Source: Polaromonas sp. JS666 (lineage in GTDB: Bacteria > Pseudomonadota > Gammaproteobacteria > Burkholderiales > Burkholderiaceae_C). Taken from it: 64,000 bases of DNA. The DNA lies in NCBI RefSeq assembly GCF_000013865.1, contig NC_007949.1:1-64000 (forward strand). Reading direction: 5' to 3'. The translations under genes were made by a program, and so were the position numbers. The notes beneath the pieces are model-generated. The model saw nothing but the letters and a program-made list of their open reading frames with translations, did not search any database and had not been told where the DNA came from. Positions 7,301 through 62,958 of this stretch are shown piece after piece (the first letter of the stretch is position 1; the number at the start of each line of letters is the position of its first letter).

Positions 7301-9478
7301 GACTTTGATGCTGTGGTCCTCACGCAGTCAACCTTCGAGAGATTGATGCTGTCGCCAGATGTTCAGCAAGAGTTCATCCGCAAGATGCTTGCTGAAGCGC
7401 GTGTAGCGGAAAGTATGGCCAGCGATACAGGTGCAAAGCGGTCTCTTAAAGAGATCGAAAAGCGCATGAAAGACTTGGAAGCGCGATTGGAACGGCTGGC
7501 AGCAGCCGGGAAGAAAGATGCAGAGAATGTGTGGTTCGATGAACTGGGAATTGACTATTCGTTCATTGACGAAAGTCATTCGTACAAAAATTTGGCGAGG
7601 ATCTCAAAGATGCCCCGCATTGCCGGCCTGCCGAATGTTTCGTCACAACGGGCGTTCGACGTCTTCATGAAGACGCGAGTCATCATGGAGAAGCATGGAG
7701 GCAGAGAGGAAGGCGTCGTGATGGCGACTGCTACGCCGATCAGCAACAGCCTGGCTGAGCTGCACACGTTTCAGGTTTTCCTGCAGCCGAAGACGCTCAA
7801 GAAGTTCGGCTTGTACGAATTTGATGCATGGAGCGCAAGCTACGGCGAGAGCGTGACAGGCATTGAGTTGGCACCTGATGGTGGAGGATATCGCCTGAAC
7901 ACCAGGTACAGCCGTTTTGTGAATCTACCCGAGCTAATGGGGATTTTTCGTGGGGTTGCAGACATTCGCACCAAGCGGATGTTGAATCTCCCAACTCCTC
8001 AGATCGAGGGCGGAAAAGCACAGACCATGGTTGCGAAACCCAGCGAGGAATTGCTGGCTATCGTGGCGGGGCTGGTAGAGCGCGCCGAGAAGATTCGCGC
8101 GGGATCAGTTAGACCAGATGAAGACAACATGCTCAGCGTTACCAATGACGGCCGCAAGGCGGCATTGGATGTTCGGCTCTTGGACGGCTTCTTGCCGTTC
8201 GATCCAACAGGGAAGCTTGCGCTGGCTGCTGACAACATGGTGCGCGTTTGGAAACAGGCGCATGCCATCAAGGGAACGCAGATGGTGTTTTCCGATCTGG
8301 GAACACCGAACAGCAAGAACTTCAATGTCTACGATGAGGTCAGACGACTTCTGATTGACAAAGGGGTTCCATCCGAGGAAATCGAGTTCATTCACGACCA
8401 CGGCAGCGACAAGGCGAAAGCCAAGTTGTTCAAGCGGGTAAGGGATGGCTCGGTGCGGTTCCTGTTGGGCTCTACGTCCAAGATGGGGACTGGCACCAAC
8501 GTGCAGAAGCGCTTGAAGGCAGTCCACCAGCTGGATGCCCCATGGGTGCCATCTGCAGTGGAACAGCGTGACGGCCGTGCGGATCGTCAGGGCAACCTGA
8601 ACGAAACAATCGAGTTATGGCGCTATGTCACAGAAAAAAGCTTTGACGCCTACAGCTGGAACCTGCTGACAGTCAAGGCCAACTTCATCGAACAGGTGAT
8701 GACGGCCGAGGCTGGACTGCGGACCGTAGAGGATATTTCGATGTCAGCGTTGAGCTACGCGGAGATCAAGGCAATCGCCAGTGGTAACCCACTGGTGATG
8801 GAGAAAGCCACGATTGACGCTGATGTGCAGAAGTTTTCGCTTCTGCGATCGCAATGGGAAGATGAGCGTTGGGCCCTGGGCCGTCGCGAGTCGAACCTTG
8901 TGAGCCGCTTGGCGTACATCGATAAGAACATGGCCAGCATGGAGGTGGAGGCAAAGCTCGCTGAAAAGGCACTTGCTTCAAACCTTGTGTTTGAGCCTGC
9001 GACATCGATCGGTGATAAGGCAGTTGATTCGCTGGGCAATGGTGCTCAAGGATTGGCAGGATCCTTCAGGGCGCACTCCCACAGGGGGTCAACTGGAGGT
9101 GAGGCAGTGGTGCTCGGAAAGTTTGGCGGTTTTACCGTCCAATACTCGAAGGTCCTCGCTGATCCTAACCTGTACTTGGTGGGACCGATTTCAGGCGCAG
9201 CGATGCGTGTGGATCGGCCGCATATCAATGACCTGGAAGGGGTGGGTCTGGCAGTTGTCAGCACTCTCGAACGGATTGTTGAAACACCAGGTGTGCTGCG
9301 AAATGAGTATGGCGAAAGGTCGAATGAACTTGCCACGACACGCAGACTGATGGTCCAGGATTTTGATCACGCGGGAAAGTTGGATGCTTTGCTCCAGCGT
9401 CAACGTGAGATTGAATCTGAGCTGGACCTTGATAAGGACGCAGAGGGATGCCAGAACATGGCTACTGAAGCGGTTTAA
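4358..9478 (+). CDS. DNA N6-adenine methylase-like / SF2 helicase fusion, DarB-type antirestriction protein
   Basis: 1706 residues. A class I methyltransferase core carries motif I EPTAGVGHF near residue 215 and a motif IV variant, GNVPFG, near 280 (the usual form is NPPY/F). A superfamily 2 helicase follows: Walker A HCVGAGKT near 907, DESH near 1070, TATPISNS near 1122 and motif VI QRDGRADRQG near 1402. The same two-part plan is known from phage P1 DarB, which protects incoming DNA from type I restriction, and from large plasmid proteins. A coiled segment lies around 1025-1050 and another near 1500-1530. GGAG lies eight bases before the ATG. The role is inferred: protecting plasmid DNA during transfer, or remodelling it. 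The proline change in motif IV makes true methylation uncertain. Confidence 0.7.
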   Translation: MGNTQIANNAKQASVWLDGFSINDFMAPSAKTEIAEVTSAVATVVFEMEASITAGASFTSEEANEQSFGMDEIQEWVSTSNNLSDWTDRKVAWPLIDPEDYSAEASAEARIADNLMAVRLLRELQSTRREVTDEDRTTLLKYCGWGGLARLFTPDGSKRHSLADQRDELESLTSEKEFTGMRSSITSAYFTDPAVVTALWQIVRHLGFQGGRILEPTAGVGHFLAGMPSELAMKSDVTAVELDTISAGMLEASFGPLGVQVHASALEKARLPVAFYDLVIGNVPFGDHRSLDTTTADYANWSIHNWAIGKSVDLVRPGGLIVLITSRHSLDSKTDSHRKWLSAHAELVGSYRLPTMAFKSQANTEAVTDILVLKRRETPDYRAGGWVDLGKATPEMIKAGQELTTVGRAYGNRIERDRSINSYYVRNPENVLGRLVFESTQFGESMNPVFNGTPADLQELLQKRIESLPANVYTAKADDSTSTSRTAMQRYEMDNYVAPGSMVVKDGRICVSEGDELLDIDSLYTGTARKRVLGMIEVKKHAEAVIEFQAKSQDDVKLQQLQTVLNGTYDAYVASMGYLSTSANSRLMRSDPSWPLMLALEMWDDEDQKAVKADIFFKRTVGHRKVPDRVDNVKDAMLISLAEFGKIVLKDLATRTGMPVMQVVKELGAQAIAFRDPELGRWVPADEYLSGHIRDKIAAAKAAGPAYAENVPALEAVLPKDLGPSEVEARMGAPWIPVDVIEQFACELVTAKDDAITVEFEAQSATWSVKHTGWKIESVGDRVLQTSQWGTAKRCALTLVEAALNQQPPNITYEVDGRRVVDRMATLAAREKWQAIRDHFRKWVYQDPARRDRLLRIYNDAFNQIVNRKFDGSHLMLPGMSSAVVPYSHQKDAIWRVVVNGNTLLAHCVGAGKTLVMCAASMELRRLGKAVKPVHVVQNSCLDQYSAEFVRLYPQARVLMASKDDLHGDNRRTFAARVATGDFDAVVLTQSTFERLMLSPDVQQEFIRKMLAEARVAESMASDTGAKRSLKEIEKRMKDLEARLERLAAAGKKDAENVWFDELGIDYSFIDESHSYKNLARISKMPRIAGLPNVSSQRAFDVFMKTRVIMEKHGGREEGVVMATATPISNSLAELHTFQVFLQPKTLKKFGLYEFDAWSASYGESVTGIELAPDGGGYRLNTRYSRFVNLPELMGIFRGVADIRTKRMLNLPTPQIEGGKAQTMVAKPSEELLAIVAGLVERAEKIRAGSVRPDEDNMLSVTNDGRKAALDVRLLDGFLPFDPTGKLALAADNMVRVWKQAHAIKGTQMVFSDLGTPNSKNFNVYDEVRRLLIDKGVPSEEIEFIHDHGSDKAKAKLFKRVRDGSVRFLLGSTSKMGTGTNVQKRLKAVHQLDAPWVPSAVEQRDGRADRQGNLNETIELWRYVTEKSFDAYSWNLLTVKANFIEQVMTAEAGLRTVEDISMSALSYAEIKAIASGNPLVMEKATIDADVQKFSLLRSQWEDERWALGRRESNLVSRLAYIDKNMASMEVEAKLAEKALASNLVFEPATSIGDKAVDSLGNGAQGLAGSFRAHSHRGSTGGEAVVLGKFGGFTVQYSKVLADPNLYLVGPISGAAMRVDRPHINDLEGVGLAVVSTLERIVETPGVLRNEYGERSNELATTRRLMVQDFDHAGKLDALLQRQREIESELDLDKDAEGCQNMATEAV

Positions 9479-10618: not shown

Positions 10619-11556
10619 GAACCTATCCGTAAATTATGTTGACCTTCAACGGCACTTTGCGGAACGCGATGATGGCAGCGGCTATGTGGTTCAGCGCGAC
10701 GAAGCTGCGTTCGAGCTTCTCGTATCGCACGAGCAGCTTGCGAAAGCGGTTGAACCAGCTGTGGCAGACCTCGACCACCCAGCGCCGCGCCTTCCTGGTC
10801 GGGTCGCGCCGCTTGGCATCGGCCTCCTTGGCGCGATCAACGACATGAGCAATGTAGCCGTGCGACTCGATGATCTCCAGGGCAGGCCGGCCACGGTATC
10901 CGGCATCGGCGCACAGGTGCTTGCTGCGCCGCGTGCTGGGCGTCTTGCGTTTGACCATGATGGCCTGCAGCACGGCATCGAGTTGCGTCACGTCATGCTC
11001 ATTGGCCCCGGTCACGACGAGCGACAACGGGACGCCACGGCCGTCCACCAGCAGGTGGCGTTTGCTCCCTTTTTTTTCCCCCGATCGGTCGGGTTGCGTC
11101 CGACCGCCTCTTGCGGCAAGGGCGCCTTGAACATGGCCCCATCGATGCTCTGCCATCGCCAAGCGATGCCTTCCATCTGGTCGTACTCGGCAAGCCCGGC
11201 TTTCCAGATGGCCTCGAACACGCCCGCGGCCTCCCACTCCAGGAATCGCTTGTGCACCGCGCTGGCACTGCCAAAGCGTTCCTTGGGCAGCGCCTTCCAT
11301 TGGCAGCCCGTGCGCAAAACATATACGACTGCCTCGAACACTTGCCGTGCCGGCTTGGGTGGCCGCCCCGCGCCCGCCTTGCGCAGGTACGCCTTGTCCG
11401 CGCTGCGCTCGCGCACCGGGATCAACGGCTCGACGCGCCGCCAAAATTCATCGGTCACCACCCACGATTCGACTCGCTTGCGTGTCGCCATTCCTTCGCC
11501 CTGGCGCCGTGTTAGCTACGGCTCGGAGCAGCAATATACTATTGACGGATAATTTC
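10619..11556 (-). mobile_element. IS5-family (IS427-like) insertion sequence, left copy
   Basis: 938 bp with imperfect inverted ends (GAACCTATCCGTAAAT and, at the other end, GAAATTATCCGTCAAT). It encodes a DDE transposase in two overlapping frames, joined at a run of eight A residues on the coding strand. The flanks are TTA on the left and TAA on the right. The protein is almost identical to that of the copy at 50372. Confidence 0.9.
10623..11491 (-). CDS. IS5-family transposase, two frames joined by programmed -1 frameshift
   Basis: The first frame (start 11491, MATRKRVESWVV) holds the N-terminal DNA-binding part and the first catalytic Asp in QSIDGAMFK. The second frame (to 10623) holds LCADAGYRG with the second Asp, and VVEVCHSWFNRFRKLL with the catalytic Glu and the Arg-containing C-terminal signature. 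The coding strand has G5-A8-G3 at the junction, a classical slippery run. A -1 shift there joins the frames in a way typical of IS427-group elements. This copy appears capable of making full-length transposase. Confidence 0.85.
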
Positions 11557-11626: not shown

Positions 11627-12829
11627 CTACCGAAAAGGCCGTAGACCGGTGTATCCCGCAATGCTTGCAACGGCCGCAAATCTTTTTTTGAGAGTAACCG
11701 GACCCGCGGTGATTTCAAAGTAGTTGTAGTCATCATGCTTTTCAGTGGCATGCAGGTACTGAAAATGCATTAAATTCTTGTTTCGCTTAAGTTTTTCGTA
11801 AATTACCGGATCGAACAACGCAGCAAAGCGTGGATTCAAAATTTTTAGATTGACGCCATGGGCCTGGCGCCTTGGAATGCCACAAGCTGTCACAGGATCC
11901 GTCAAGGCAAAACAGCATCCGTCAGGCGGTGCGGAGAAATCTGTCCAGGTCAGGCCATCCCCGGCGTCAAGTATCTGCAATTCTTCCCTGAACTGGTAAG
12001 CCATCGGCAAGAGTCCGAGCAAGGGAATACATTGCCCCAGGGTTAGCAAGGAAACTGCGGTTCGGCCGCGAAGTAGATCCGGTGAAAGTTTCAAAGCGCG
12101 GGCCAAAATGATTGTCGCCATGATCGCTCCGGAGCTATGGCCAACGACGAGCACCTCGTCATCCTGCTGGGACTGGATGCGCTCCACCAAACGCTGGGCG
12201 AGTTCGTCGAGCCGGACTTCCAGATCCGGCACTTCCCCGCGCGCTTGCCTGGCAGTAAACGCGTAGCTACGCATCATCCAGTACATGCTATAGCGCGCTT
12301 CAAGCTTTCGGCCACCCGTCCACAAGGCACCAGCGACAAGGCCGGCAACGATCATGCCAGCGGCGGTATGCTCCAGCGCACTAGCCGATACCCATGCAAT
12401 AAAAATCGTCAGCAGCGGAATGCCCAGGAGCATCGCACACACCAACAGGAAAGGTACGAACAAGGCAACAGCGAATGGCCAGGAAAGGCAGAACATCTTC
12501 CACAAAGTGCCGTGCCGCACATAGAAAATCGTCGTGGCGATCGCATCCCACCATATTGTCCAAGTGGTTTTTGGCCAGTGACGGCGCACCACATCGTCCC
12601 AGCTCATGAACTCGTAATGCGTCTGCACGTGTTGCTCGCCGAAACCTGCCTGGACGGACCAGGCTGCCGAGCCTGATGTTTGCTGGCGACGGCGAGGCCC
12701 AACTTCCAGGTGCCAGCCATCCTGCCTGCTTTTCCGGGTGCCTTGGTCCCGATAAAGGGCGTGGTAGTGACTCGCCCCCTTAGGATCGAACCCACTCACA
12801 TAAAACACACAGCGCTTCGAAACAGTCAT
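11627..12829 (-). CDS. Membrane-embedded alpha/beta-hydrolase-like protein, paralogue 1
   Basis: 400 residues. The N-terminus carries VSGFDPKGASHYH. Two or three hydrophobic helices lie at about 110-180. A nucleophile-elbow motif GHSSG sits near 229-233, as in serine hydrolases and lipases. A conserved block LTLGQCIPLLGLLP follows near 265, then RNKNLMHFQYLHA near the C-terminus. The gene at 14567-15787 is a full-length paralogue with the same blocks. It is the last gene of a seven-gene minus-strand operon, ten bases after the 114-residue membrane protein. An esterase, acyltransferase or lipid-processing role at the inner membrane is inferred. I do not know a characterised homologue. Confidence 0.55.
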   Translation of the reverse strand: MTVSKRCVFYVSGFDPKGASHYHALYRDQGTRKSRQDGWHLEVGPRRRQQTSGSAAWSVQAGFGEQHVQTHYEFMSWDDVVRRHWPKTTWTIWWDAIATTIFYVRHGTLWKMFCLSWPFAVALFVPFLLVCAMLLGIPLLTIFIAWVSASALEHTAAGMIVAGLVAGALWTGGRKLEARYSMYWMMRSYAFTARQARGEVPDLEVRLDELAQRLVERIQSQQDDEVLVVGHSSGAIMATIILARALKLSPDLLRGRTAVSLLTLGQCIPLLGLLPMAYQFREELQILDAGDGLTWTDFSAPPDGCCFALTDPVTACGIPRRQAHGVNLKILNPRFAALFDPVIYEKLKRNKNLMHFQYLHATEKHDDYNYFEITAGPVTLKKRFAAVASIAGYTGLRPFR

Positions 12830-12840
12830 GGTTCAGCGCC

Positions 12841-13185
12841 CTAAAAAATTGTCTTCTTGTGCAGCCCTTTCTGCTGCACCAAGTCAACCACCGGTTGCTC
12901 TCGCCTGTTGGCCCTCTGGCAATGATTTTTCTGAAACAAGTCGGTCAGCCATATCACCCCCCTGGCCCAGCGGCGATGACGCTCCCGCCACGCGTGAGAA
13001 GAGACGCTCTCCCACGCGTACCCATTAAATACAGAGGCATTCACAAAGTGGTCAAGCGCACGGACTCCCGGCCGGCCCCGATCGGTTCGTCCCAAGAAGC
13101 CCACCCAGACAATGATCAGATATCCCACCACAGCCAGCGGCACGATACCCGTCATCATGACAAAACCCATGAGTCGTTCTTTCAC
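12841..13185 (-). CDS. Small membrane protein (114 aa)
   Basis: It starts with GTG at 13185, overlapping the P450 stop as GTGA, which indicates translational coupling. One hydrophobic helix (about 8-30: VMMTGIVPLAVVGYLIIVWV) is followed by a basic, Trp/Arg/His-rich cytoplasmic tail (SSHAWRERHRRWARGVIWL, then KNHCQRA). Similar short membrane proteins with SHAYRERHKRW-like tails occur in proteobacteria, but I know of no function. In this operon it could anchor or assist the P450 or the hydrolases. Confidence 0.5.
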   Translation of the reverse strand: MKERLMGFVMMTGIVPLAVVGYLIIVWVGFLGRTDRGRPGVRALDHFVNASVFNGYAWESVSSHAWRERHRRWARGVIWLTDLFQKNHCQRANRREQPVVDLVQQKGLHKKTIF

Positions 13186-14609
13186 TGATCTTCCCGTTTA
13201 AAAATCCGAAGCCGCACCCCATTGTCGGAGCGAATGGTCAGCCGACCCACCGGCATGGGTGTGTGCCCCGTCACAGTTTCCAGGCGAAATGCGCGTATCA
13301 GGCTGGCCAGAATCAACGTTGCCTCTTGCAGCGCAAACGCAGCGCCCAAACACACCCGGGGCCCCATGCCAAACGGCAGATAGGACTGCCTGATTGACTC
13401 CCGGCTAGCGTCGTCGTCGAACCGATCCGGGTTGAACGCATCCGGATCACTCCATCGCTCACGGTGTCGATGAATCAACCACGGTGAAATCATCACCGAA
13501 GCCCCCTTGGGAACCATCTTGTCTCGCATCGGGCAGGTCTGGGCCGACTCGCGCGCCATAAACCCTACCGGCGGAAACAGGCGCAGGGTTTCCCGAAACA
13601 CATTGCGCGTCAGTACCAACGCCTTCATGTCCCGCTGCTCAGGAGTGCGCTGGCCAAACACGCGGCACGTCTCCTGATGCACGCGCTCCTGCACCTCCGG
13701 CACTGCCGACAGCAGGTAGACCGCCCACGTCAGTGCACTGGCCGATGTCTCGTGTCCGGCCAAGAACAGCACGGCCACCTGGTCCACCAACTCGTCGAAC
13801 GAAAACGGCTCGCCTGTTTTTCTATCACGCGACGTCATCAAGGCTGACAAGATATCGTTTTTACCCAAGTCGTCACCGCGCAGCCAAGCCTCGTGACGCG
13901 AACGAATCAGTTTCTCCAGCAACCGGCGGATGTCGGACGCGGCGCGGCGGCTTTGCCACACATTCCAGGGCCAGACCAACCAGCGAACGCCGTACATTGA
14001 GGGCAACATCAACTTGGGAGCCAATGCCTGAAACCGCGCAAACGCATCAAATACCTTATGGGCATCGTCACCGCTCAATGGTTCAGAAAAAATCGTGCGG
14101 TAGATTATGTCTGCCGTCACATGTGTCAGCTCGACCTCAATGTTGAGCTCACTACCTCTCTGGGCGGCCTCAGTCAATCGTTCAACCAGGTCGTCTGCGG
14201 CAGCGCGCATGACGGGAAATGCTACGTCGAGCTTGGCCTGCGCGAAGGCCGGGTTCATCATCTCGCGCTGGCGCTGCCATTGGTCACCGTTAGTCGTTAG
14301 TATGCTGTCGCCGAGCAAAGGCCGAAGGGCATCGGCCAGCAGCGGACTTTTGGGAAACTGATCCGGCTGCCCGGACAACATGCGCCTGACCAATGCCGGG
14401 TCGTTCACCATATACAAGTCCACGCCCGGCAGATGCACTTCTCCCATCTGCATGCTGTAGCTTCGCGCGTACAAAGCGTCTATCCAGGAGTTTCTGGCAC
14501 TTCTGAAAAGAGCCCAGACGGAAGAACGCTTCTCTCTGGGTTTTGGGTAACCGGGGCAGAAATGGCTCAATGCGTACTCCCTCGGCTCAAGCTCCGGCAT
14601 AGGTGCCAT
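13182..14609 (-). CDS. Cytochrome P450 monooxygenase
   Basis: 475 residues with all P450 hallmarks: the I-helix oxygen-activation motif AGHETSASALTW near 285, ExxR in RETLR near 338, and the heme-binding loop FGMGPRVCLGAAFA near 410 with the cysteine ligand at about 418. It has no membrane anchor, so it is a soluble bacterial type that needs ferredoxin or other redox partners, none of which are in the window. The general look (long, CYP110/CYP4-like) favours hydroxylation of a hydrophobic chain, but the substrate cannot be read from sequence. It overlaps the upstream hydrolase gene by 43 bases and the next gene by four. Starting at ATG 14600 would shorten the overlap. Confidence 0.9.
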   Translation of the reverse strand: MAPMPELEPREYALSHFCPGYPKPREKRSSVWALFRSARNSWIDALYARSYSMQMGEVHLPGVDLYMVNDPALVRRMLSGQPDQFPKSPLLADALRPLLGDSILTTNGDQWQRQREMMNPAFAQAKLDVAFPVMRAAADDLVERLTEAAQRGSELNIEVELTHVTADIIYRTIFSEPLSGDDAHKVFDAFARFQALAPKLMLPSMYGVRWLVWPWNVWQSRRAASDIRRLLEKLIRSRHEAWLRGDDLGKNDILSALMTSRDRKTGEPFSFDELVDQVAVLFLAGHETSASALTWAVYLLSAVPEVQERVHQETCRVFGQRTPEQRDMKALVLTRNVFRETLRLFPPVGFMARESAQTCPMRDKMVPKGASVMISPWLIHRHRERWSDPDAFNPDRFDDDASRESIRQSYLPFGMGPRVCLGAAFALQEATLILASLIRAFRLETVTGHTPMPVGRLTIRSDNGVRLRIFKREDQ

Positions 14610-15787
14610 GGCCCCGCCGTCATCAAAAAATAGTCGTATTCCCCCACCTTGGGCGAGGCCATCAGGTATTGCAAATGCAGGTGGCGCTTGTTCTTCCTGA
14701 GCCAGGTATATTCCTCAGCATCGAACAAGGTGTGAAACCTCGGGGACCGCATGGTGGGCATCACCGGGCGTCGTCCCGCAGGCCCGACACGGCAAATTTC
14801 AAGCGGATCGACCAGCGCGAAGCTTCCCCAATCGGTCGGCGAAGAATAATCCACCCAGCACAGATCGGCGGCAGCAGCCAGTACCGCCAGCTCACCACGG
14901 AACCGATGTGCCCTGGGCATCAATCCGAGTAACGGAATGCACTGGCCCAAGGTAAGGAACGACAAACGACAGGCAGCCGACGCGTCGCCTTCGCATTTCT
15001 TTACAACCCTGGCCATAATGCTGGCGGCCAGCATGCTGCCAACGCTGTAACCCACCAGCAGCACTTCGTCGGCGTCCTTGCGCCGCAAGCACTCATACAC
15101 GCGTGACGCCATCGCATCCAGACGTTTTTCCAATTCTGGCAGTTGCCCACGCGCCCAAAGATCCACAAAGCGATAGATGCGCAGCAGCCAGGATGTATGC
15201 AGCTTGCGCTCAATCCGCAGCGCGCCCCACCAGGCGCCAGCACACACCAGCGCCGCCAGGCCCCATGCCAGTGCCCCTGTCTTGCCCGGTGCCCAATCGC
15301 TTGCCAGGCCAACGCGGAACGTCAGCTGCGCCACCAGTTGGCCCAGCAATATCCCGACGATCAAAGCAAGCACCCACAGCAGCGCCGGATAAGCCAGCGC
15401 AATCAGGGTGCGGCGGCTTTGCCGCCACACCCTGAGCAACCCCAGCCCACAAGACCCAGCCGCCACATAAGCGAGTACAGCTCCCCATGCCACCGCTGCA
15501 ACACCCCGCGGCCAATGGGCCCGCACCAAGTCGTCCCACGCCAGGAACTCGATCGTCGTTTCCACCGGCTCAATCGGATCCGATATGTCGCCGCGCCATT
15601 TCGCACACCACCGCTGCACATCAGGGTCTTCCGTTCGCTCCCGGCGACCAACGTCACAGGCATATCCTGAAGTCTTCCCCTGACGACCAGCACCTTCAGC
15701 ATACAGACGGTGGTAATACGAAGCGCCCTTGGGGTCAAACCCGCTCACAAAAAACACGTGGCGCCGACGAACGACTGGCTGGGTCAT
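14567..15787 (-). CDS. Membrane-embedded alpha/beta-hydrolase-like protein, paralogue 2
   Basis: The start at 15787 (MTQPVVRRRHVFFVSG) is chosen because it overlaps the upstream glycosyltransferase stop as ATGA and aligns with the start of the paralogue at 12829. The product has 406 residues: FVSGFDPKGASYYH at the N-terminus, hydrophobic helices at about 110-190, nucleophile elbow GYSVGS near 245, LTLGQCIPLLGLMP near 290, and RNKRHLHLQYLMA near 370. A Ser-containing elbow is kept in both paralogues, so both may be active. Its place between a GT1 glycosyltransferase and a P450 suggests that the three act on one lipid-like substrate (inference). Confidence 0.55.
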   Translation of the reverse strand: MTQPVVRRRHVFFVSGFDPKGASYYHRLYAEGAGRQGKTSGYACDVGRRERTEDPDVQRWCAKWRGDISDPIEPVETTIEFLAWDDLVRAHWPRGVAAVAWGAVLAYVAAGSCGLGLLRVWRQSRRTLIALAYPALLWVLALIVGILLGQLVAQLTFRVGLASDWAPGKTGALAWGLAALVCAGAWWGALRIERKLHTSWLLRIYRFVDLWARGQLPELEKRLDAMASRVYECLRRKDADEVLLVGYSVGSMLAASIMARVVKKCEGDASAACRLSFLTLGQCIPLLGLMPRAHRFRGELAVLAAAADLCWVDYSSPTDWGSFALVDPLEICRVGPAGRRPVMPTMRSPRFHTLFDAEEYTWLRKNKRHLHLQYLMASPKVGEYDYFLMTAGPWHLCRSLSRGSTH

Positions 15788-17091
15788 GCCAGTTGCTCCA
15801 ACCACTGGCAGACTTCGTCCAGCCCAGGTGCAGGCGTCAGCCGACCCGCCCATTGCAGGCAGGCTTGTTGTACCGCCGCGCTGCTCAGCAGTCTGTCGAT
15901 GCCGGCTGCCAGCTCATGGGACGTAACCGGGTCCGCCTTCAGGCTCAGCCCAACCCCCAGCTGTTCCAGTCGCATGGCGTTGTCAAATTGGTCATATGCC
16001 TGTGGCCACACCAGTTGCGCAAGGCCCGCACGCAAAGCCTGCGCACAGGTACCTACACCGCCATGGTGCACGATGGCCCTGGCTCTGGGCAACAGGGAGC
16101 CAAACGGATGGTAAGGAGCCGCCCAAACATAGTCCGGCAGCTTTTTCGCGGCCAACGCTCCCAAGTGTCCAAGCAGCACGCCGCGCACCCCCAAGCGCTG
16201 ACAGGCTTCGATGGCACTCCTGAAAAAGCCCTCGCCCGCCTGCTGGGCTGAGCCCGGCATGAACACCACAGGCGCGGGGCCGGTATCCAAAAACCGCTTG
16301 AGGCCCGCGTCCAAAGCCGTCGGCCCATTCAAGGCTCCAGCGGCTCCCTCAACGATGTCGTCATAGATCGGGAAAGTGCCGCGCATCACCTGCGCGGGCC
16401 AATCGGGTGGAGTAGGCGCAAACCATTTCGGAAACAAGGTCAGCCCACCAAGGGGTGAATGCATCCATCGGTCAAACACCGCACCGGCCGCTGGCCCCAT
16501 GGGCGGCAGGGCTAGCTCCCGGCGCAAGGACTCCAGCGCCGGCTTGACCAATGGGTCGAGTTTGGCCTTGTCCAGCAACTTCCAGACACCCTGACGCACC
16601 CATAGCGGCACCACAGGAGGCACATGCCATTTCGCTATCGTCAAAGGATCTTGCACAGTTCTTAGCAGGGTGGCCGACGTGTAGGCCGTCACAAGCTGGA
16701 TTCCCAATTTTTCTTGCGCCACACGCGCCCCCATGGCCAGGGGGCTGGCTACCACCAGGGGCCCCTTCTTGCCACTGGCAGCTCCGCTGGAAGGCTGACA
16801 CAAACCATGCAGCACGGCATACGTGGGCCGCAACGCCGGGCGCAACAGGTAGCGCCACATCACGCCAAGGCCGTCTATCGGGTGCCACAGCTTGGGATGA
16901 GCGAGCATCTTCCGGTACTCCTCTTCGGTACCCACGGGCACAAAAGCTAGCCCGGCTCGCACCGCCTCCTCGCGAAACACCGGGTTGCTCAACAGCATGG
17001 CCTGATGCCCCCGTGCCTGCAACGCCCGGCCAAGCCCAAGCATGGGGTGCACGTCGCCCCGGCTGCCAAAAGTGACCAACAGTACTTTCAT
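15784..17091 (-). CDS. GT1-family (UGT-like) glycosyltransferase
   Basis: The start at 17091 gives 435 residues. The N-terminal GT28-like Rossmann domain opens with VLLVTFGSRGDVHPMLGL. The C-terminal domain has VFMPGSAQQ and the nucleotide-sugar-binding signature HHGGVGTCAQAL near 341. This is the organisation of sterol and macrolide glucosyltransferases and of RhlB-type rhamnosyltransferases, which glycosylate small lipophilic acceptors rather than growing polysaccharide chains. That acceptor class fits the adjacent P450 and hydrolases. It lies 17 bases after the KpsC-like gene and overlaps the next gene by four bases. Confidence 0.85.
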   Translation of the reverse strand: MKVLLVTFGSRGDVHPMLGLGRALQARGHQAMLLSNPVFREEAVRAGLAFVPVGTEEEYRKMLAHPKLWHPIDGLGVMWRYLLRPALRPTYAVLHGLCQPSSGAASGKKGPLVVASPLAMGARVAQEKLGIQLVTAYTSATLLRTVQDPLTIAKWHVPPVVPLWVRQGVWKLLDKAKLDPLVKPALESLRRELALPPMGPAAGAVFDRWMHSPLGGLTLFPKWFAPTPPDWPAQVMRGTFPIYDDIVEGAAGALNGPTALDAGLKRFLDTGPAPVVFMPGSAQQAGEGFFRSAIEACQRLGVRGVLLGHLGALAAKKLPDYVWAAPYHPFGSLLPRARAIVHHGGVGTCAQALRAGLAQLVWPQAYDQFDNAMRLEQLGVGLSLKADPVTSHELAAGIDRLLSSAAVQQACLQWAGRLTPAPGLDEVCQWLEQLA

Positions 17092-17108
17092 GTCACGCGC
17101 CTGCCTTC

Positions 17109-18176
17109 TCAGGGCCTGGCCAGCAATGGCCGCAGCAGACGGCGCCACCACGGTAACTGACCCTGGGTCTGGCCCCGCCAAGCCACAAGTTCCAGCAGGG
17201 CCTGCTCCGGCGTGCAGCGCCTGCGGGATTGACCGCCGACATACACCGGGTAAAGCAGCAGCGCACCCGCCACCAGTTCATCCAGCGTCAGGCGCCGGGT
17301 TCGTCGGGGGTGAGGGTGTATATCTTGCGTCAGTCCCCACCCTGCGTAAAACGGCTGGCCGTAGCAAAAAACAGCCTTATGGCGCAACAATGCCTCAAAC
17401 CCGGTGAGCGATGTCATCACATGCACCTCATCCACCAGAGGAAACAGCTGTGCAGGAGAGCCTTGCGTCAGCACCTCGTCGGCCCACTGGCCAGCCCGGT
17501 CTTCCCTGGCCCCACTGCGGCGCAGCCCAGCTACCACGTCCGGGTGCGGCTTGTAAACCACCCAGGCGTCCGGCCGGGTTTGCCGTACCGTTTGCAGCAA
17601 CGCCATATTGGTTCGCACATCCAGCGCACCGGTGGCAATTGACGCGTCGCTCTCAACCTGGCCAACCACCAGCACTACCTGGCCCCTCACATCTGGCCGT
17701 TGCCATAATGCGCCGCTCAGGTTGTACTTGCTCAGACCTGACTGCACCACCTGCTGTCGGAAGGCCTTCGCACGCTCTACCAGCGACGGACTGATCGATG
17801 CAGTTTGCAGTAAGCTTTCCAGGTCATTGGGTGTGCGTGCGTCGTAATAAATTCCCAGCGTATCCACCACCCAGGAGACAGGGCGGATCAAGTCGGCACC
17901 CAATCCAACAGAGCGCAAAAATCCGTCCTCGAGCCGCACCACGCGCACATCTCCCGGCATCCCCACTGGCACGGCAGCACTGCCCCACAGCAGCAGGTCC
18001 GCCCCCTCAGGCACGTCAGCGCCCCGGGACACAAAGCGCACGTCAGGTCGCCCAGCAAAGTCGCGCACCAGCGCCCGCTTGCGCCAGGAAAAACCATGGG
18101 CCGCCACGACCGGCCGCCACGCAACACCAGCATCGCACGCGGTGGCGGAACGATCAACGGGGAGCCCGGGCGTCAT
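17109..18176 (-). CDS. Single-domain KpsC-type beta-Kdo transferase
   Basis: 355 residues, about half the length of KpsC (about 675). It matches one KpsC repeat: VVLVVGQVESDASIATG near 167, VYKPHPDVVAG near 207, DEVHVMTSLTGFEALLRHK near 250, and GQPFYAGWGLTQDIHP near 275. In group 2 capsules, KpsC and KpsS build the short beta-Kdo linker on lyso-phosphatidylglycerol before chain attachment. Only one transferase domain remains here. The KpsS-like partner lies 31 kb away at 48966. The gene overlaps the upstream GT4 gene... its ATG overlaps that stop (ATGA). It may make a shortened linker or act on another acceptor. Confidence 0.85.
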   Translation of the reverse strand: MTPGLPVDRSATACDAGVAWRPVVAAHGFSWRKRALVRDFAGRPDVRFVSRGADVPEGADLLLWGSAAVPVGMPGDVRVVRLEDGFLRSVGLGADLIRPVSWVVDTLGIYYDARTPNDLESLLQTASISPSLVERAKAFRQQVVQSGLSKYNLSGALWQRPDVRGQVVLVVGQVESDASIATGALDVRTNMALLQTVRQTRPDAWVVYKPHPDVVAGLRRSGAREDRAGQWADEVLTQGSPAQLFPLVDEVHVMTSLTGFEALLRHKAVFCYGQPFYAGWGLTQDIHPHPRRTRRLTLDELVAGALLLYPVYVGGQSRRRCTPEQALLELVAWRGQTQGQLPWWRRLLRPLLARP

Positions 18177-19333
18177 GCCACACTCTCCAGCAAACGTTCC
18201 GCCTGGGTGAAGTGGTCTTTCCAGGTCGGTACCCTGAAGCCCTGTAGCCGCTGCAACTGCGCCTGGCGCCTCGTGCCGGAGGTTGCCGCATAGTCCAGCA
18301 CCACCTGCATCCAGCCGAGGCCGTCAAGCGGACTCAGAAAGTCCGGAATGTCGCCCGCGATTTCCCGAAAGACCGGCAAATCGCTTGCCACTACCGGCGT
18401 GCCCAACAGCAAGGCTTCAACCAGCGGCATCCCGTAGCCCTCCACGAACGACGGAAACAGCAAGGCACGCGCGTGCCGAAGGTAACAAGCCAGTTCAGCG
18501 TCCGGACAGGCGGCGATCTCATGCACAAACGGCCGAACGGTTTCGCAGCGCTCCAGCATGTCCACCACGTTCTCGCACTCCCAGCCGCGCTGGCCGATCA
18601 CGACCAGGTGCGGGCAAGCACCGCCCAAACGCTGCACCAACTCGCGCCAAACCTTGAGCAGCAGCAGGTGGTTCTTGCGCGGCTCGATCGTGCCCAGGAC
18701 CACAAAGTAAGGTCGGTTGAGCGGCGACTCAACGCCACGGCTCCCATTCAAAGGGGCGGGCGCCAGGGGTGCCACCACGGCGGGTGGCATCGGCAAGCCG
18801 CGACTGTCGGCAAATATTTTCAACGCATCGAGCGTGAACTGTGAATTTCCGATCAAGCCAGCCCCGGTGCGCAGCATGGCCGTCATCCGCTCTATATGAG
18901 CGGATCGCTCCCCCTCGCGGCAATATTCGGCATGGCTGATCGGAATCAGGTCGTGCACAAAATAAACCGGCTTTTGCCGCGTTGCATGAACCCATGCGGC
19001 AAACCCGGGCATCTCTATACCCGAATGTCCAAGGTAAAAGCCTGGCTTGCCAGCAGCATCCTGCGATGGCCATGGCGGCACACAGGCCCTGGCGATGGCC
19101 CAGTTCACCTGACGCGCAAAGCCAGGCAGCGGGGCCAGCAGCAGCGAGAACAATTCCTGGGACGCCTTGTAGGGAAGAATGCGCCGCCAAGTGCCTTTTT
19201 GAACGACAGCCTGCGCACGACCACCCCAGTGCTGCACATAGGCCAGGCAAACCCGGTCAACCCCCGTGGGCAGACGCCCTTGCGACGCGCGGCCCAACAA
19301 GCGACTGATGTCGATGAGAATATCAGCCCTCAC
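18173..19333 (-). CDS. GT4-family glycosyltransferase
   Basis: 386 residues from a GTG at 19333, as no nearby in-frame ATG fits better. The C-terminal GT-B domain has VVLGTIEPRKNHLLLLKVW near 206, and SFVEGYGMPLVEALLLGTPVV near 292 with the catalytic-site Glu residues of the EX7E motif. VYFVHDLIPI near 138 marks the N-terminal domain, as in mannosyl- and fucosyltransferases of exopolysaccharide loci. It is the first gene of the seven-gene operon. About 260 non-coding bases upstream (19334-19594) should hold the promoter, but no clear boxes are seen. Confidence 0.85.
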   Translation of the reverse strand: MRADILIDISRLLGRASQGRLPTGVDRVCLAYVQHWGGRAQAVVQKGTWRRILPYKASQELFSLLLAPLPGFARQVNWAIARACVPPWPSQDAAGKPGFYLGHSGIEMPGFAAWVHATRQKPVYFVHDLIPISHAEYCREGERSAHIERMTAMLRTGAGLIGNSQFTLDALKIFADSRGLPMPPAVVAPLAPAPLNGSRGVESPLNRPYFVVLGTIEPRKNHLLLLKVWRELVQRLGGACPHLVVIGQRGWECENVVDMLERCETVRPFVHEIAACPDAELACYLRHARALLFPSFVEGYGMPLVEALLLGTPVVASDLPVFREIAGDIPDFLSPLDGLGWMQVVLDYAATSGTRRQAQLQRLQGFRVPTWKDHFTQAERLLESVA

Positions 19334-19594: not shown

Positions 19595-20824
19595 TCAGCC
19601 GGCGTTGGTCACAAATCGCAGCTGTGCCGGCAGGCAATGGCGTTGCAAGTCGTACTTATCGGTAATGGTCTGCCGTGCAGCCTGACGCAAAGGGGCGAGC
19701 GCCGGCCCCTGCGCCAGCGCCTGCGCCACTGTTTCAGCCAGGTCCCCTGGGTCAAAAAAGTCGGTCAGCAGACCGTTTCGGCCGTGCTCGATCAATTCCT
19801 CCACCGGCGCGGTGCGCGAGCCTATGACCAGGGCGCCTATGCTCATCGCCTCCATCAGCGACCACGACAGCACAAACGGGTAGCTCAAGTACACATGGGC
19901 TGCCGACACCTGCAGCAGCTGCGTGAGCACCTCATGCGGCAGCGTTCCAACAAAATGGACCCGCTGGCGATCCAGCTGCGGCGCAACCTCATCCAGGAAA
20001 ATCTGCTTCCAGCTGCCTCCGGCCGCAGGCGCGGAGCCATAGCTCACACCGTCCCCGCCCACCAGCACCACCCGCGCCCGCGGGCGCAGCCGCAATAGCG
20101 CGGGGAGCGCCCGCATGAAGGTGTGATACCCCCGGTAAGGCTCCAGTTGCCGGGCCACAAAAGTCACCACTTCGTCGCCCGGGCGCAGCGTCAGCCCGCT
20201 CACGCCCAGCCGCACCGAGGCTTGCGGGTCTGGACGAAAGCGGTCGGTATCGATGCCATCGTGGATCACCTTGATCCGGTCCTGACTCCAGGCCGGGTGC
20301 TGGCCACGCTGAAACTCGGTTGGCGACAGCGCGGCATCGGCCGCATGCAGGGCATGCAGCAGGTGCGTGTTTTTGATCCGCGTCGCCTGCGAGGCTTCTA
20401 GCGTGACGCGTGAAAACTCAGGGTCAAACGCCACATCCCCGCCCGCCGCGCCATAAAAGTACTCGGCATACACCAGCAGCCGCGCCTTGGGAAACACATC
20501 TTTCACGTACCAGGCTTCGCCCCAGCCGGGGTGGGCAAACACCACATCCGGCACAAAACCCTGAGCCGCGAGCGCTGCCAGGCAGCGCGCCGCCGACTGC
20601 CCGCGCACCATCTTGCCGTATAACTCCCGCAGGGCGGCGGGCGTCTGGCCTGTCACGGCGCCGGGCTGCGGCTCGGGCTGGTACAACAGGTGCCGCACGC
20701 CCGGTAGCGGGGTCTTGGCCGGGTTAACGCCAAGCGCCACCACAGTGTGCCCCTGCGCGGCCAACGCGGGGGCAAGGTGCCTGAACTGGCCCGGAAAATT
20801 CTGATGAATGAAGAGGATGTTCAT
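19595..20824 (-). CDS. GT4-family glycosyltransferase at the end of the type I secretion operon
   Basis: 409 residues. The N-terminus (ILFIHQNFPGQFRHLAPALA) and the C-terminal donor domain (VVTFVARQLEPYRGYHTF near 220, and YPFVLSWSLMEAMSIGALVIGS near 315) match retaining GT-B glycosyltransferases of a type found beside exopolysaccharide and type I secretion genes. The start overlaps the TolC-family stop as ATGA, so it is translated with the secretion apparatus. It may glycosylate the RTX protein or a polysaccharide co-produced with it. Neither can be told from sequence. Confidence 0.85.
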   Translation of the reverse strand: MNILFIHQNFPGQFRHLAPALAAQGHTVVALGVNPAKTPLPGVRHLLYQPEPQPGAVTGQTPAALRELYGKMVRGQSAARCLAALAAQGFVPDVVFAHPGWGEAWYVKDVFPKARLLVYAEYFYGAAGGDVAFDPEFSRVTLEASQATRIKNTHLLHALHAADAALSPTEFQRGQHPAWSQDRIKVIHDGIDTDRFRPDPQASVRLGVSGLTLRPGDEVVTFVARQLEPYRGYHTFMRALPALLRLRPRARVVLVGGDGVSYGSAPAAGGSWKQIFLDEVAPQLDRQRVHFVGTLPHEVLTQLLQVSAAHVYLSYPFVLSWSLMEAMSIGALVIGSRTAPVEELIEHGRNGLLTDFFDPGDLAETVAQALAQGPALAPLRQAARQTITDKYDLQRHCLPAQLRFVTNAG

Positions 20825-22152
20825 TTCAGTTGCTGGTCAATCAGCAGCAGGTCCGACACGTCCAGCACGCCGGCGGCGGCGCGCAAGCGGAACCAGGCCT
20901 TGAAGTAATTGAAGCGCGCCTGCGTCAGCTCCTGCTGCACTGTGAACCGCTGCGTCTGCGCATTCAGCACGTCGAGCGTCACACGAATGCCCCCCTTCAC
21001 GCTCTGTCGCGTGGCCTGGACCTGCAGGGTGGCGGCGTCAAGTGCCTCGGAGTAGGCGCTGACTTTCTGCGCCTGGCTGAGCAGGACTCGGTACTGCTTG
21101 CGCAACTCAGTGAGCACGGTTTCACGGGCGTCGTCCAGCATGGCTTGAGCCGAACCCATGGCCGCCGCCGCCTGCCGGGCTTGCGACGCGTTACGCCCAT
21201 TGTCAAACACCGGCATGTTGAGTTGCACCCCAACGGAGCGCTGAAAACTGGATTGATTGACCGTGTTGATCGAGTCCGAGTCCGCCCGGGACACGCTGGC
21301 TACCGCATCCAGCCGCGGCCGCCATACCGCGTCACTGCGGTCCAGCACCTCACGCGCGGCCTGTAGGGCGTGGCGGCGCACCTCAATGGTCGGGTTGCGC
21401 GCCAGAGCCAGAAGCTCCCAGGCTGCCAGGTCGGCGGGCTGCAGCGGCAGACGGGTGAACATCGCGTCCAACTTGCGGGGCTCCGGACGAACGGTCGGGC
21501 CCAGCATCATGACCAGGCGACCGATTGCATCCTCGCGGACGTCACGAGCCTCGAGCAGTCGGGCCTCGGCCACCGCCAGCCGTGAGCGAGCCTCCAACTC
21601 ATCGGTCACCGTACCTTCGCCCCGCGCACGCATGTTTTGAGCGCTGCGCAATTGTTCGCCCAGGGCAGCAACCTCGGCCGTTGCCGTGGCCAGCAGCTCG
21701 TCGGCCAGCGGAACGTTTGTGTAGGCCTCCAGCAGGCGCACCATCAACTGGCTGGTTTGATCGGCCAGCGCCGCTTCGCCCTGTCGAGAGCGGGCCTCCC
21801 CCTCGCGACCGCGTGCCCGCAACTCCGCGTTGTACAACGGTTGTCGCAGCTGTAGCAGCAAGTTACTGCTTTGGTAGCTCGTCGTGCGTGACGCCGTGCC
21901 CACTGACTGGTCCAGCTGGTTCTGCGCCAGCGACGCCCCCAGCGACACCTCGGGGCCGAGCGCAGCTCTCCCGTAAACACCATATTCCCTGCTGGCTTCA
22001 AAGTCCCGCAAGGCGGACTGGTATTTGGGGTCGTAGGCACGCGCCGCATCGAGTGCAGCCGTCAGGCTCAAACCGCCCGCCAGCCCACCCTGAGCGAAGC
22101 ACATCAACGCGACCGTCGCCAGCGTTCGACGCACGAAGCCTTTAATTCTCAC
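20821..22152 (-). CDS. TolC-family outer-membrane channel of a type I secretion system
   Basis: 443 residues from a GTG at 22152, overlapping the HlyD gene by 11 bases. A signal peptide (about 1-25) precedes the repeated TolC architecture: SLTAALDAARAYDPKY near 28, long helices with internal twofold repeat, and a second block starting near residue 245 (ARNPTIEVRRHALQAAREVL). The family forms a trimeric outer-membrane duct that docks on the HlyD adaptor. The local gene order (ABC, HlyD, TolC) is the classic PrtDEF-like order. Confidence 0.9.
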   Translation of the reverse strand: MRIKGFVRRTLATVALMCFAQGGLAGGLSLTAALDAARAYDPKYQSALRDFEASREYGVYGRAALGPEVSLGASLAQNQLDQSVGTASRTTSYQSSNLLLQLRQPLYNAELRARGREGEARSRQGEAALADQTSQLMVRLLEAYTNVPLADELLATATAEVAALGEQLRSAQNMRARGEGTVTDELEARSRLAVAEARLLEARDVREDAIGRLVMMLGPTVRPEPRKLDAMFTRLPLQPADLAAWELLALARNPTIEVRRHALQAAREVLDRSDAVWRPRLDAVASVSRADSDSINTVNQSSFQRSVGVQLNMPVFDNGRNASQARQAAAAMGSAQAMLDDARETVLTELRKQYRVLLSQAQKVSAYSEALDAATLQVQATRQSVKGGIRVTLDVLNAQTQRFTVQQELTQARFNYFKAWFRLRAAAGVLDVSDLLLIDQQLK

Positions 22153-24945: not shown

Positions 24946-25139
24946 AGCACACATTCTATACAGCGGGATAGCGACGGCCTGGGCAATATTCACTGCCGCA
25001 TCGCGGCTCCAAATAACCCTAAGTTGCGCTGGAATTCTATGTATACTAATTTTTACATAAGTAACTTTTGATGGGTTGCTGACTTCCGCGGCCACCGGTG
25101 GGCGCCGCATTTTTCAATTCACGATTGAGGATACGGCAC
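24946..25139. promoter_or_regulatory. Divergent promoter region between secretion operon and RTX gene
   Basis: This stretch separates the two oppositely transcribed units. On the plus strand TATACT at about 25042 is a reasonable -10 box, but the expected -35 position is poor, which suggests an activator. GAGG about 12 bases before the ATG at 25140 acts as ribosome site. The region is clearly AT-richer than either gene. Confidence 0.45.
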
Positions 25140-42873: not shown

Positions 42874-42924
42874 TTTAGGAGTCACGACAACCAAGGCACT
42901 TCTGTGGAGGAATACCCATGCCTA

Positions 42925-48965: not shown

Positions 48966-50282
48966 TCAAGGGTGACCCCAACGCAGGGGCTCGTCTCTTA
49001 AGGCATAGACGCTGGCAGAGGCTTGCGTGAGGTTTTTCATTTGCGCCAGAAATGCCGCAGTGACCACTTTGTCAGCAGGGCGGGCATGGTGCCAAAACTC
49101 ATCGAGCTCGCCCCAAAAGGTGAGATGCGGCTGCTTGTAAAGTGCCTCGCCCAGTGCCATGAGGGGGGCACCCCGCTCCAGTGCCTGCAAGCCGACGGTG
49201 CTATTGATGAGCACCACACCAGCGGACCGCTGGGCCAGGTCGGGCGTGTCGCCCTCTACCATGTGGCGCACACGGCCCGTGATGCCCAGTTCAGCCGCGA
49301 GGCTGGAAATGAGGCTCACATGCCCGGGTCCCCCTCGGGAATGAGGGTGTTGGCGAAACACCAGCCAGGAGTCTTTGGGTGCGCGCCACGCAAAGGAGCG
49401 CATGACGCGGATGATGAAGGCAGTGTTTTCTGCGAACGGGCTGTGGTGGGTGATTTGGGCGTCGCCATCGTGCTGCAGTGGCACAAGGAAATAGTGCCGA
49501 CTGCCCTGAAACAACCGGGCTTGAAACCGGCGGTCCACAGACTGATGCAGCCATTTGCGTCGCCACGAGTGCAGCCAATAAGCGGCATATTGGTAGGGGT
49601 TGTCGCCGCGGTGGTGCTGATAGTGCGGGAAGTCTGCGCGCGATTTGTACAAGGCCATGTAATGCTGAACCGCATGCCAGGCCATTTTTTGAAAATGCCG
49701 CGGCGATATGTCGGGCAGAAGATTATTCGGGCGCCGCTTGGCACGGCCTTCGCTGTTCACCAATGCCACGGGTTGCCAGCAGTAACGCTGCAGCGTTGTG
49801 GAATAGCCATTGACACCGCCCAACTCCATGGTCAAGTAGCCTGGGCGAAAGTAGCCTTCTTCCAGAACCACAACAGGCAGGTCTTGAGCACGCGCGACCT
49901 CCCTGGCCTTTTCGTGGTAGCGGCGCGATTGGCCAAACAACACGACGCAGTCAATACCCAACCGGTGAATCTGACTTTCGAGAAAGGCGGACCACCCCTC
50001 AAGCGTACCCCGGTAGGCGATAGGCTGGAGCAACTTGCAGTCGTGCTGGTCTCCACCCTGGAGGGCAATACGGTGGACTTCAGCGCCACAGGTGTGCAGC
50101 CAGCGGGTCAGCCGGTCGTAAAAAGGCCCCACCGGCCCCTGCAGCAGCAAGACTTTTCGGGACTTGGCGAGCTGAATCTGAGCCGGGTTGTACGGTACGT
50201 GGCGACGGCCTTCGTCGGGATGTGCCGAAAATTGATTTTCCGCGCGCGGCTCATTCCCAGCTTTTAGCGAAACGACTGACAT
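48966..50282 (-). CDS. kpsS: Capsule export/Kdo transferase, KpsS-like
   Basis: The ATG at 50282 has GGGAG five bases upstream and gives 438 residues. KpsS features are VLLLQGPVGPFYDRLTRWL near 48, VVLEEGYFRPGYLTMELGGVN near 145, FRQHPHSRGGPG near 315, and VLINSTVGLQALERG near 360. KpsS puts the first Kdo on lyso-phosphatidylglycerol in group 2 capsule systems. It is the first gene of the minus-strand capsule operon that runs down to about 36.6 kb. The right IS element lies about 90 bases upstream, so expression could depend on an IS-borne promoter. Confidence 0.88.
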   Translation of the reverse strand: MSVVSLKAGNEPRAENQFSAHPDEGRRHVPYNPAQIQLAKSRKVLLLQGPVGPFYDRLTRWLHTCGAEVHRIALQGGDQHDCKLLQPIAYRGTLEGWSAFLESQIHRLGIDCVVLFGQSRRYHEKAREVARAQDLPVVVLEEGYFRPGYLTMELGGVNGYSTTLQRYCWQPVALVNSEGRAKRRPNNLLPDISPRHFQKMAWHAVQHYMALYKSRADFPHYQHHRGDNPYQYAAYWLHSWRRKWLHQSVDRRFQARLFQGSRHYFLVPLQHDGDAQITHHSPFAENTAFIIRVMRSFAWRAPKDSWLVFRQHPHSRGGPGHVSLISSLAAELGITGRVRHMVEGDTPDLAQRSAGVVLINSTVGLQALERGAPLMALGEALYKQPHLTFWGELDEFWHHARPADKVVTAAFLAQMKNLTQASASVYALRDEPLRWGHP

Positions 50283-50371
50283 CAACTCCCTTGCTTTTTG
50301 CTTTTGTCTTTTTATTTACACTTATCGAATAATCATAACACCCGGTTACAGCAATGAACTGCTGACATTTA

Positions 50372-62784: not shown

Positions 62785-62804
62785 AGAAGCTCTCCAGTTA
62801 AATG

Positions 62805-62821
62805 CAACACAAGGTGTGTTG
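62805..62821. promoter_or_regulatory. Perfect short palindrome before parM
   Basis: CAACACA-AGG-TGTGTTG lies 21 bases before the parM start. It is an operator candidate, or a leader hairpin. Confidence 0.45.
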
Positions 62822-62863
62822 ATAAAAATTCTAGGTGAACAAGTAGCTTCTGTGTGGAGGTCT

Positions 62864-62958
62864 GGACAGAAAAGTCCATAGACAGGACATTTCTGTCCAA
62901 TCAAGTAGCGCCGTCGGGAGGTTGGACAGAAATGTCCAGCTTGTGGACTTTTCTGTCC
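62864..62958. promoter_or_regulatory. Symmetric four-box array, probable parC/operator
   Basis: Four 14-bp boxes of the form GGACAGAAAWGTCC lie at 62864-62877, 62885-62898, 62924-62937 and 62945-62958. Boxes 1 and 3 face one way, 2 and 4 the other. Box 1 equals box 4 and box 2 equals box 3 after inversion, making the whole 95 bp one large dyad. Within each pair the starts are 21 bp apart, about two helical turns, so the boxes lie on one face. Such arrays are bound by ParR-type proteins. Confidence 0.8.

Follow-up and report, generated by a model that had tools for sequence, protein, structure and literature searches.

In the window, a 64,000-nucleotide stretch of contig NC_007949.1 of Polaromonas sp. 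JS666, seven genes on the minus strand (19333 to 11627) formed one operon. Its core, composed of a membrane alpha/beta hydrolase, a cytochrome P450 and a 114-residue protein called SMALL here, was shared by Beta- and Gammaproteobacteria and by Campylobacterota, mostly in the company of KpsS/KpsC-type capsule genes. The hydrolase-P450-SMALL module was the unit that travelled, and the GT1-family glycosyltransferase, the paired hydrolases and the half-size KpsC of the window operon were add-ons to it. Judged from the genes and their motifs, the operon may be a lipid-tailoring annex of the KpsS/KpsC/KpsMT capsule pathway, which depends on an ATP-binding cassette (ABC) transporter, and may give a remodelled, GT1-glycosylated anchor with a short linker of 3-deoxy-D-manno-oct-2-ulosonic acid (Kdo); we regard the chances for and against this reading as even.

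All seven open reading frames (ORFs) of the operon were confirmed, overlapping or nearly so on one strand, as a previous sequence-only reading of the same DNA had described. In the order of the minus strand, they encoded GT4a, a GT4-family glycosyltransferase with a GTG start (18173..19333; Pfam PF00534); the half-size KpsC, assigned to the C-terminal beta-(2->7)-Kdo transferase module, GT107 (17109..18176); the GT1-family glycosyltransferase (15784..17091); HYD1, a membrane alpha/beta hydrolase with the nucleophile motif GYSVG (14567..15787); the cytochrome P450 (13182..14609; PF00067, E 1.6e-83); SMALL (12841..13185); and HYD2, a second membrane alpha/beta hydrolase with the motif GHSSG (11627..12829). 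The likely starts of GT1 and HYD1 were 17091 and 15787, and those listed by the ORF program (TTG at 17181 and 15853, respectively) were probably too early. Direct reading of the junctions gave three four-base overlaps instead of the four that had been counted, namely ATGA between GT4a and KpsC (18176-18173), ATGA between GT1 and HYD1 (15787-15784) and GTGA between P450 and SMALL (13185-13182). HYD1 and the P450 overlapped by at most 43 nt, and short gaps separated KpsC from GT1 (17 nt, given the GT1 start at 17091) and SMALL from HYD2 (11 nt). Two overlapping transposase-like ORFs (10623-11491), IS5-like by eye with no family search made, adjoined the downstream end of the operon.

The recurrence of the operon was followed through SMALL in a scan with one genome per species, in which the best 80 of 150 relatives were kept, so that remote forms were under-sampled. 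Genes in these loci were mechanical ORFs matched by BLAST with chosen bit-score limits. A P450 was found in 78 of the 80 loci, a hydrolase in 76 and both in 75. GT1 was present in only 20/80 loci and two hydrolases in 19/80, 18 of these 19 together with GT1, and GT4, KpsC, GT1, P450 and hydrolase were all found around SMALL in ten. The window-type set thus recurred more than expected by chance, in 10/80 SMALL loci, and the seven-gene set that had been proposed as a unit was kept as an elaborated form of a three-gene core. KpsS or KpsC was encoded in 46 of the 80 stretches and any kps gene in 48; 38 of the stretches fell short of 20.3 kb, and among the 42 full-length ones 32 contained a kps gene. 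For the 32 SMALL loci with no kps gene in the stretch, 29 genomes carried PF05159, the KpsC/KpsS family, elsewhere. Two loci (L116 and L145) had export genes and were outside this PF05159 genome count. In loci of the Ideonella type, the module stood apart from the kps genes.

In the family of the window, PF05159 was found in 47 of 299 genomes and strong SMALL matches (E <1e-60) in 15, all of them PF05159-positive. The hypergeometric probability of this association was 1e-13 by genome and 4e-8 by genus (11/11 versus 34/141), with kinship ignored in both. Weak SMALL relatives were not scored as carriers (10 of the 25 genomes matched), and the ten genomes with such relatives only were all PF05159-negative, as were three genomes with a strong hydrolase and without SMALL. 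Within a Campylobacteraceae sample, SMALL was present in 39/120 genomes, and in all 20 loci read from these 39 carriers the HYD-P450-SMALL module was placed beside kps genes. KpsS adjoined the hydrolase or was one gene off in 16 of the 20, and KpsD was nearby in the other four. The window had hydrolase, P450 and SMALL in this order too, and its operon also included the half KpsC. The link of the operon to a KpsS/KpsC-type capsule was therefore strong in the 80-locus scan, in the 299 genomes and in the Campylobacteraceae, far beyond the window in which it had been proposed.

The P450 retained the heme-binding cysteine (FGMGPRVCLG), the I-helix motif AGHETS (AGxET) and ExxR, and it looks like an active oxygenase by these intact superfamily motifs. 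A phylogenetic tree placed the SMALL-linked P450s, including those of the window and the Campylobacteraceae (451-468 aa, between HYD and SMALL), on one side of a branch as a group of 69 rows with a Shimodaira-Hasegawa-like approximate likelihood ratio test (SH-aLRT) support of 94. This was a quick tree of 89 of 111 rows, from which same-genome repeats and two thirds of the Campylobacteraceae rows had been dropped, and the SMALL-linked labels were set by hand because over-long ORFs had defeated the automatic ones. The P450s of hydrolase-P450 pairs without SMALL fell outside the group. Those from eight loci with the order SMALL-HYD-P450 also fell outside it, in a neighbouring group, and two Methylophilaceae loci were outside as well; both sets had labels of their own. 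A further variant of the module was seen in L056, L059 and L122, where a SMALL-linked P450 and a P450 of another clade stood side by side next to KpsC.

The P450 and an EryCIII-like glycosyltransferase shared one operon in the window, as in macrolide pathways, and an accidental neighbourhood of a natural-product or catabolic operon with the capsule genes was considered for this reason. The position of the operon on a 360-kb contig, with an insertion-sequence-like ORF pair at its downstream end, would also suit such an origin. The module recurred with capsule genes across classes and phyla, however, and Pfam identified no assembly-line protein among those of the window that were run through it, so that this explanation is disfavoured as very improbable. 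The window P450 did not fit the P450-derived glycosyltransferase activators of macrolide pathways (DesVIII/EryCII type), which are marked by loss of the heme-binding cysteine: it kept this cysteine, ExxR and AGxET and scored only 34.8 bits with NCBIfam TIGR04515, far under its cut-off of 343.

SMALL had been treated as minor in the sequence-only reading; instead it was the best conserved member of the module, with 62-77% identity among 12 sequences. It contained the conserved block RALDHFVNAxxFNGYAWESxSSHAWR and, by hydropathy, one predicted membrane helix, and its structural model had a predicted local distance difference test score (pLDDT) of 78. No Pfam family matched it at E 0.01, and a weak match was found with the phage family phrog_3342 of unknown function (E 6.6e-5). 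SMALL may thus join a domain of phage type to a membrane helix. Among its relatives, short chromosomal ORFs (L067/L069, for example that of L069) carried a block like LDQLxNTLLGGxxDETLSSRAWR without the capsule-type N-terminal helix.

HYD1 and HYD2 were 39% identical, and the two membrane hydrolases were thus paralogues as proposed. No Pfam family matched HYD1 at E 0.01, HYD2 matched only lipase and thioesterase models, all below cut-off, and the HYD sequence profile likewise gave weak lipase/thioesterase matches (E 0.01). In the alignment of the hydrolase family, the catalytic Ser, Asp and His were found in 118, 120 and 119 of 120 sequences, respectively; four ORFs that lacked the start motif were excluded when active sites were counted. 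The model of HYD2 (pLDDT 96.4) had membrane helices inside an alpha/beta-hydrolase fold with a nucleophile elbow, and its nearest structures by Z were thioesterases and the phospholipase PlaB. An acyl-glycerolipid or an acyl thioester is a candidate substrate of the hydrolases, as the fold neighbours include a phospholipase and thioesterases. Downstream hydrolases of the HYD2 type formed one clade (22 rows, SH-aLRT 97) and accompanied GT1. The C-terminal donor-binding domain of GT1 carried HHGGVGT, as in its class (HHGGxGT), and the protein matched Pfam EryCIII-like_C and Glyco_transf_28. Its best PDB match was the sterol 3-beta-glucosyltransferase 5xvm (E 1.5e-17), and the rhamnosyltransferase 9ke1 (E 1.9e-13) was among many other GT1 matches. 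The likeness to a sterol glucosyltransferase fits a lipid acceptor and falls short of proof. A hydrolase together with a GT1 resembles, as an analogy only, the rhamnolipid-type pair of an RhlA-type acyltransferase and the GT1 enzyme RhlB.

The enzymes could alternatively decorate the capsule chain itself, by oxidation of sugars or by acylation or deacylation of the polysaccharide, since GT1 and GT4 could use sugar acceptors and part of the module was often found beside export and sugar genes. Such decoration seems improbable, because the same SMALL, P450 and hydrolase occurred with unrelated cargo and the hydrolase fold contains membrane helices. Beyond the module and the capsule core, GT4a was found in 12/80 loci and ManC in 7/80, and the commonest unlabelled family was found in only 8/80. 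With so few recurring neighbours of the serotype type, the probable target of the module is the conserved glycolipid end and not the serotype-specific chain.

The capsule locus of the window contained, on the same strand and about 27-30 kb upstream of the operon, KpsS, the transferase of the first Kdo onto lipid (48966..50285; PF05159 over the full length, E 7.7e-63), together with the export proteins KpsM (46594-47397), KpsT (45896-46588) and a KpsD-like protein (42925-44736), all matched by Pfam. The KpsE-like protein (44740-45999), without a Pfam match, was named by its position and its matches to counterparts in other capsule loci. These are the components of an ABC-transporter-dependent capsule locus, with KpsE recognised by position and relatives only. 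The glycolipid of the group 2 type is poly-Kdo on (lyso)phosphatidylglycerol. By its genes the window locus is a variant of that type: like the group 2 pathway of E. coli it has KpsS, a monofunctional first Kdo transferase, KpsM, KpsT, KpsD and a KpsE-like gene. Unlike that pathway, with its bifunctional KpsC of (2->4) and (2->7) modules, it has the (2->7) module only and the added operon of lipid enzymes.

The half KpsC, confirmed as the single C-terminal module, matched Pfam Capsule_synth and, best in the PDB, 6mgd (E 7.9e-76), and it carried the QXXXD nucleophile motif as QVESD at residue 173. In a tree of 67 of 77 rows, from which unsplit full-length rows were dropped, it belonged to a clade of 16 rows within the C modules (support 100/98), and the N modules formed a separate clade (100/100). 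By motif and tree it is KpsC-C, the beta-(2->7)-Kdo transferase module. Across the whole genome of the window, PF05159 was found only in KpsS besides the half KpsC, and no KpsC-N, the (2->4) module, was present; KpsC-N was also absent from the four other window-type genomes examined (G039, G053, G064 and G113). According to the part of PMC10148158 consulted, the (2->7)-Kdo is transferred first, by KpsC-C, and the (2->4)-Kdo after it, by KpsC-N. Because KpsC-N, which does the (2->4) step, is absent, a pathway with just KpsS and KpsC-C would be expected to end at Kdo-(2->7)-Kdo.

Each of the 11 GT4a loci also contained the half KpsC, no more than about 3 kb from GT4a. In a Polaromonas metagenome-assembled genome (MAG), the two were fused in frame as a protein of 760 aa with GT4a first (L084, 10422-12704, on the same contig as L051). 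The fused protein is arranged like KpsC, but with a GT4 where the (2->4) module would stand, which hints that GT4a acts on the di-Kdo product. GT4a would then replace the lost (2->4) module and cap or extend di-Kdo, leaving a short linker; its PDB matches, to MshA/PimA-type enzymes, were weak (E 1.4e-6 and weaker). In joining the Kdo glycolipid to the chain, as proposed here, GT4a would resemble the transition transferases of group 2 capsules, of which the characterised CpsA and CpsC belong, unlike GT4a (PF00534), to PF04464 and LicD-type families in the portion of PMC11666461 consulted. A competing possibility, tentative and on the whole doubtful, is that the half KpsC makes the usual poly-Kdo, and no short linker, together with a (2->4)-Kdo transferase that has escaped recognition, be it GT4a or the product of a different gene. 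KpsC halves do occur on separate polypeptides in Thermosulfurimonas dismutans, the source of 6MGD and thus of the best match to the window protein (PMC10148158, in part), and L056 and L127 each had one gene for the N half and another for the C half. In T. dismutans both modules are retained, however, whereas the window has a GT4 in the place of the second, and neither its genome nor the four other window-type genomes examined contained a second PF05159 Kdo-transferase module of that kind.

The P450 alone had a described counterpart. In Campylobacter jejuni, Cj1413c is presumably kpsS and Cj1410c presumably a small protein, and we take CYP172A1 to be the name of the P450 Cj1411c. The consulted part of PMC3784454 described Cj1411c as a membrane-associated P450 without close homologues, about 453 aa long and encoded at the downstream edge of a kps region, and deletion lowered capsular polysaccharide (CPS), the staining of lipooligosaccharide (LOS) and serum survival. 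Like Cj1411c, the Campylobacteraceae module P450s, of matching length, stood beside kps genes, and they grouped with the P450 of the window. We infer from place and length, and not from a comparison with the Cj1411c sequence, that Cj1411c is the P450 of a HYD-P450-SMALL module. That part of PMC3784454 made no mention of a hydrolase, a small protein, Cj1412 or Cj1410. The window operon differs from the described case in adding GT1, a second hydrolase, GT4 and the half KpsC. The module itself was described nowhere in the open-licence literature searched, a scope that leaves subscription journals outside. The statement that no pathway with this gene set was known was therefore upheld for the set and not for its P450.

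Relatives of the hydrolase also occurred away from capsule genes. Among 24 hydrolase matches in plasmid records, the hydrolase adjoined a P450 in six (five Paracoccus and one Pseudorhodobacter), GT1 in one (Methylorubrum extorquens CM4) and, in Bradyrhizobium sp. CB82 and Pararhizobium qamdonense, a gene with an isoprenylcysteine methyltransferase annotation. SMALL was not found in the plasmid-record collection, and no capsule genes were annotated in the four annotated plasmid stretches around the hydrolase. The kind of finding that the sequence-only reading had named as speaking against its proposal, homologous operons without capsule genes, was thus made in part: these six hydrolase-P450 records and one hydrolase-GT1 record, all without SMALL, had no capsule gene in those surroundings that were annotated. 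As the neighbours vary (P450, GT1, methyltransferase), the hydrolase appears to partner different lipid-modifying enzymes, and SMALL would mark its recruitment to capsule work. In L055 (14385-17450), of a genus without SMALL or PF05159 (g139), the hydrolase adjoined an ORF resembling an acyl-CoA ligase by eye, with no family search made, which would be a further lipid setting for it.

In the pathway that we infer, substrates and order of reactions included, KpsS would put Kdo on the phospholipid, the half KpsC would add one (2->7)-Kdo to give Kdo-(2->7)-Kdo only, and GT4a, standing in for the (2->4) module, would cap or extend it. HYD, P450 and SMALL would act on the capsule at its conserved glycolipid end, or on its lipid precursor, where the membrane-bound serine hydrolase HYD1 may remove or transfer an acyl group and the P450 may oxidise the acyl chain, so that the capsule would be borne by a remodelled lipid. 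SMALL would probably be a scaffold or an electron-transfer adaptor. GT1 with HYD2 may glycosylate the lipid, the simplest site being the hydroxyl introduced by the P450, and KpsMT would export the product. Of this scheme, the gene content, the motifs and the linkage were observed directly. An oxidised, glycosylated lipid is a plausible product of this gene set. For capsules exported by ABC transporters, the end made of lipid and Kdo has been described as conserved among species (PMC11666461 and PMC10148158, both in part). That ABC-type capsules in the three major groups carry an oxidised anchor, which in a Burkholderiales clade is GT1-glycosylated and has GT4-capped di-Kdo in place of poly-Kdo, is a bolder proposal that we hold only tentatively; if it is true, both halves of this "conserved" terminus have been re-invented. 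A module that travels with KpsC/KpsS across three groups points to an unstudied tailoring step at the conserved capsule end, and the isolated observation on Cj1411c gains a set of partners and a testable pathway. The half KpsC and GT4, which are fused in one case, would allow a direct test of how much poly-Kdo linker capsules need.

Several observations weighed against an oxidised capsule anchor. SMALL was missing from 32 of the 47 PF05159-positive genomes of the window's family, so that the module is an optional annex and is not needed for such capsules generally. No PF05159 was found in the genomes of three SMALL-bearing MAGs (L090, L133 and L137), and the Ideonella-type loci have been noted above. 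The match to the alpha/beta-hydrolase fold is to a superfamily of many activities, and a Foldseek search with the hydrolase model gave no match at E 0.001. Hydrolase-P450 and hydrolase-GT1 pairs occurred without SMALL or annotated capsule genes, so that the hydrolase and the P450 can serve other lipids. The GT4a-KpsC-C fusion is known from a single MAG, and we know of no capsule chemistry for any carrier. The lowered LOS staining of the Cj1411c mutant also fits a general envelope effect (PMC3784454, in part). The main rival is accordingly that the module modifies general envelope lipids, such as phospholipids, the lipid A of lipopolysaccharide (LPS) or LOS, or a free glycolipid, for the holding or export of the capsule and leaves the anchor unchanged. 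The lowered staining of both CPS and LOS in that mutant, the loci with the module apart from kps genes and PF05159 elsewhere in 29 of 32 genomes, and the hydrolase and P450 relatives without capsule genes all suit it. The presence of KpsS or KpsC within so many SMALL stretches (46/80), and of PF05159 in all 15 SMALL genomes of the window's family, argues against it, and we consider the envelope explanation rather unlikely.

In 20821-31433, after the operon and before the remaining capsule genes, the window encoded a full type I secretion set of TolC-, HlyD- and PrtD-like proteins together with a protein of 2111 aa with RTX repeats; in a Ramlibacter locus (L076, 0-3 kb), PrtD- and HlyD-like genes adjoined GT4a. 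The regions 32549-35894 and 40366-42894 encoded two proteins of the polysaccharide pyruvyl-transferase type, of which one (33990-35894) contained TPR repeats and the other was 842 aa long, beside a methyltransferase (32549-34024) and a GSCFA protein, which suggests that the capsule chain is pyruvylated or otherwise modified. The contig of the window comprised 360,405 bp of a 5.9-Mb genome, and a methyltransferase-helicase-like ORF of 1706 aa (4358-9478) and an actin-like protein of the ALP/ParM type (61600-62904) suggest a plasmid or chromid; the capsule locus may therefore be mobile.

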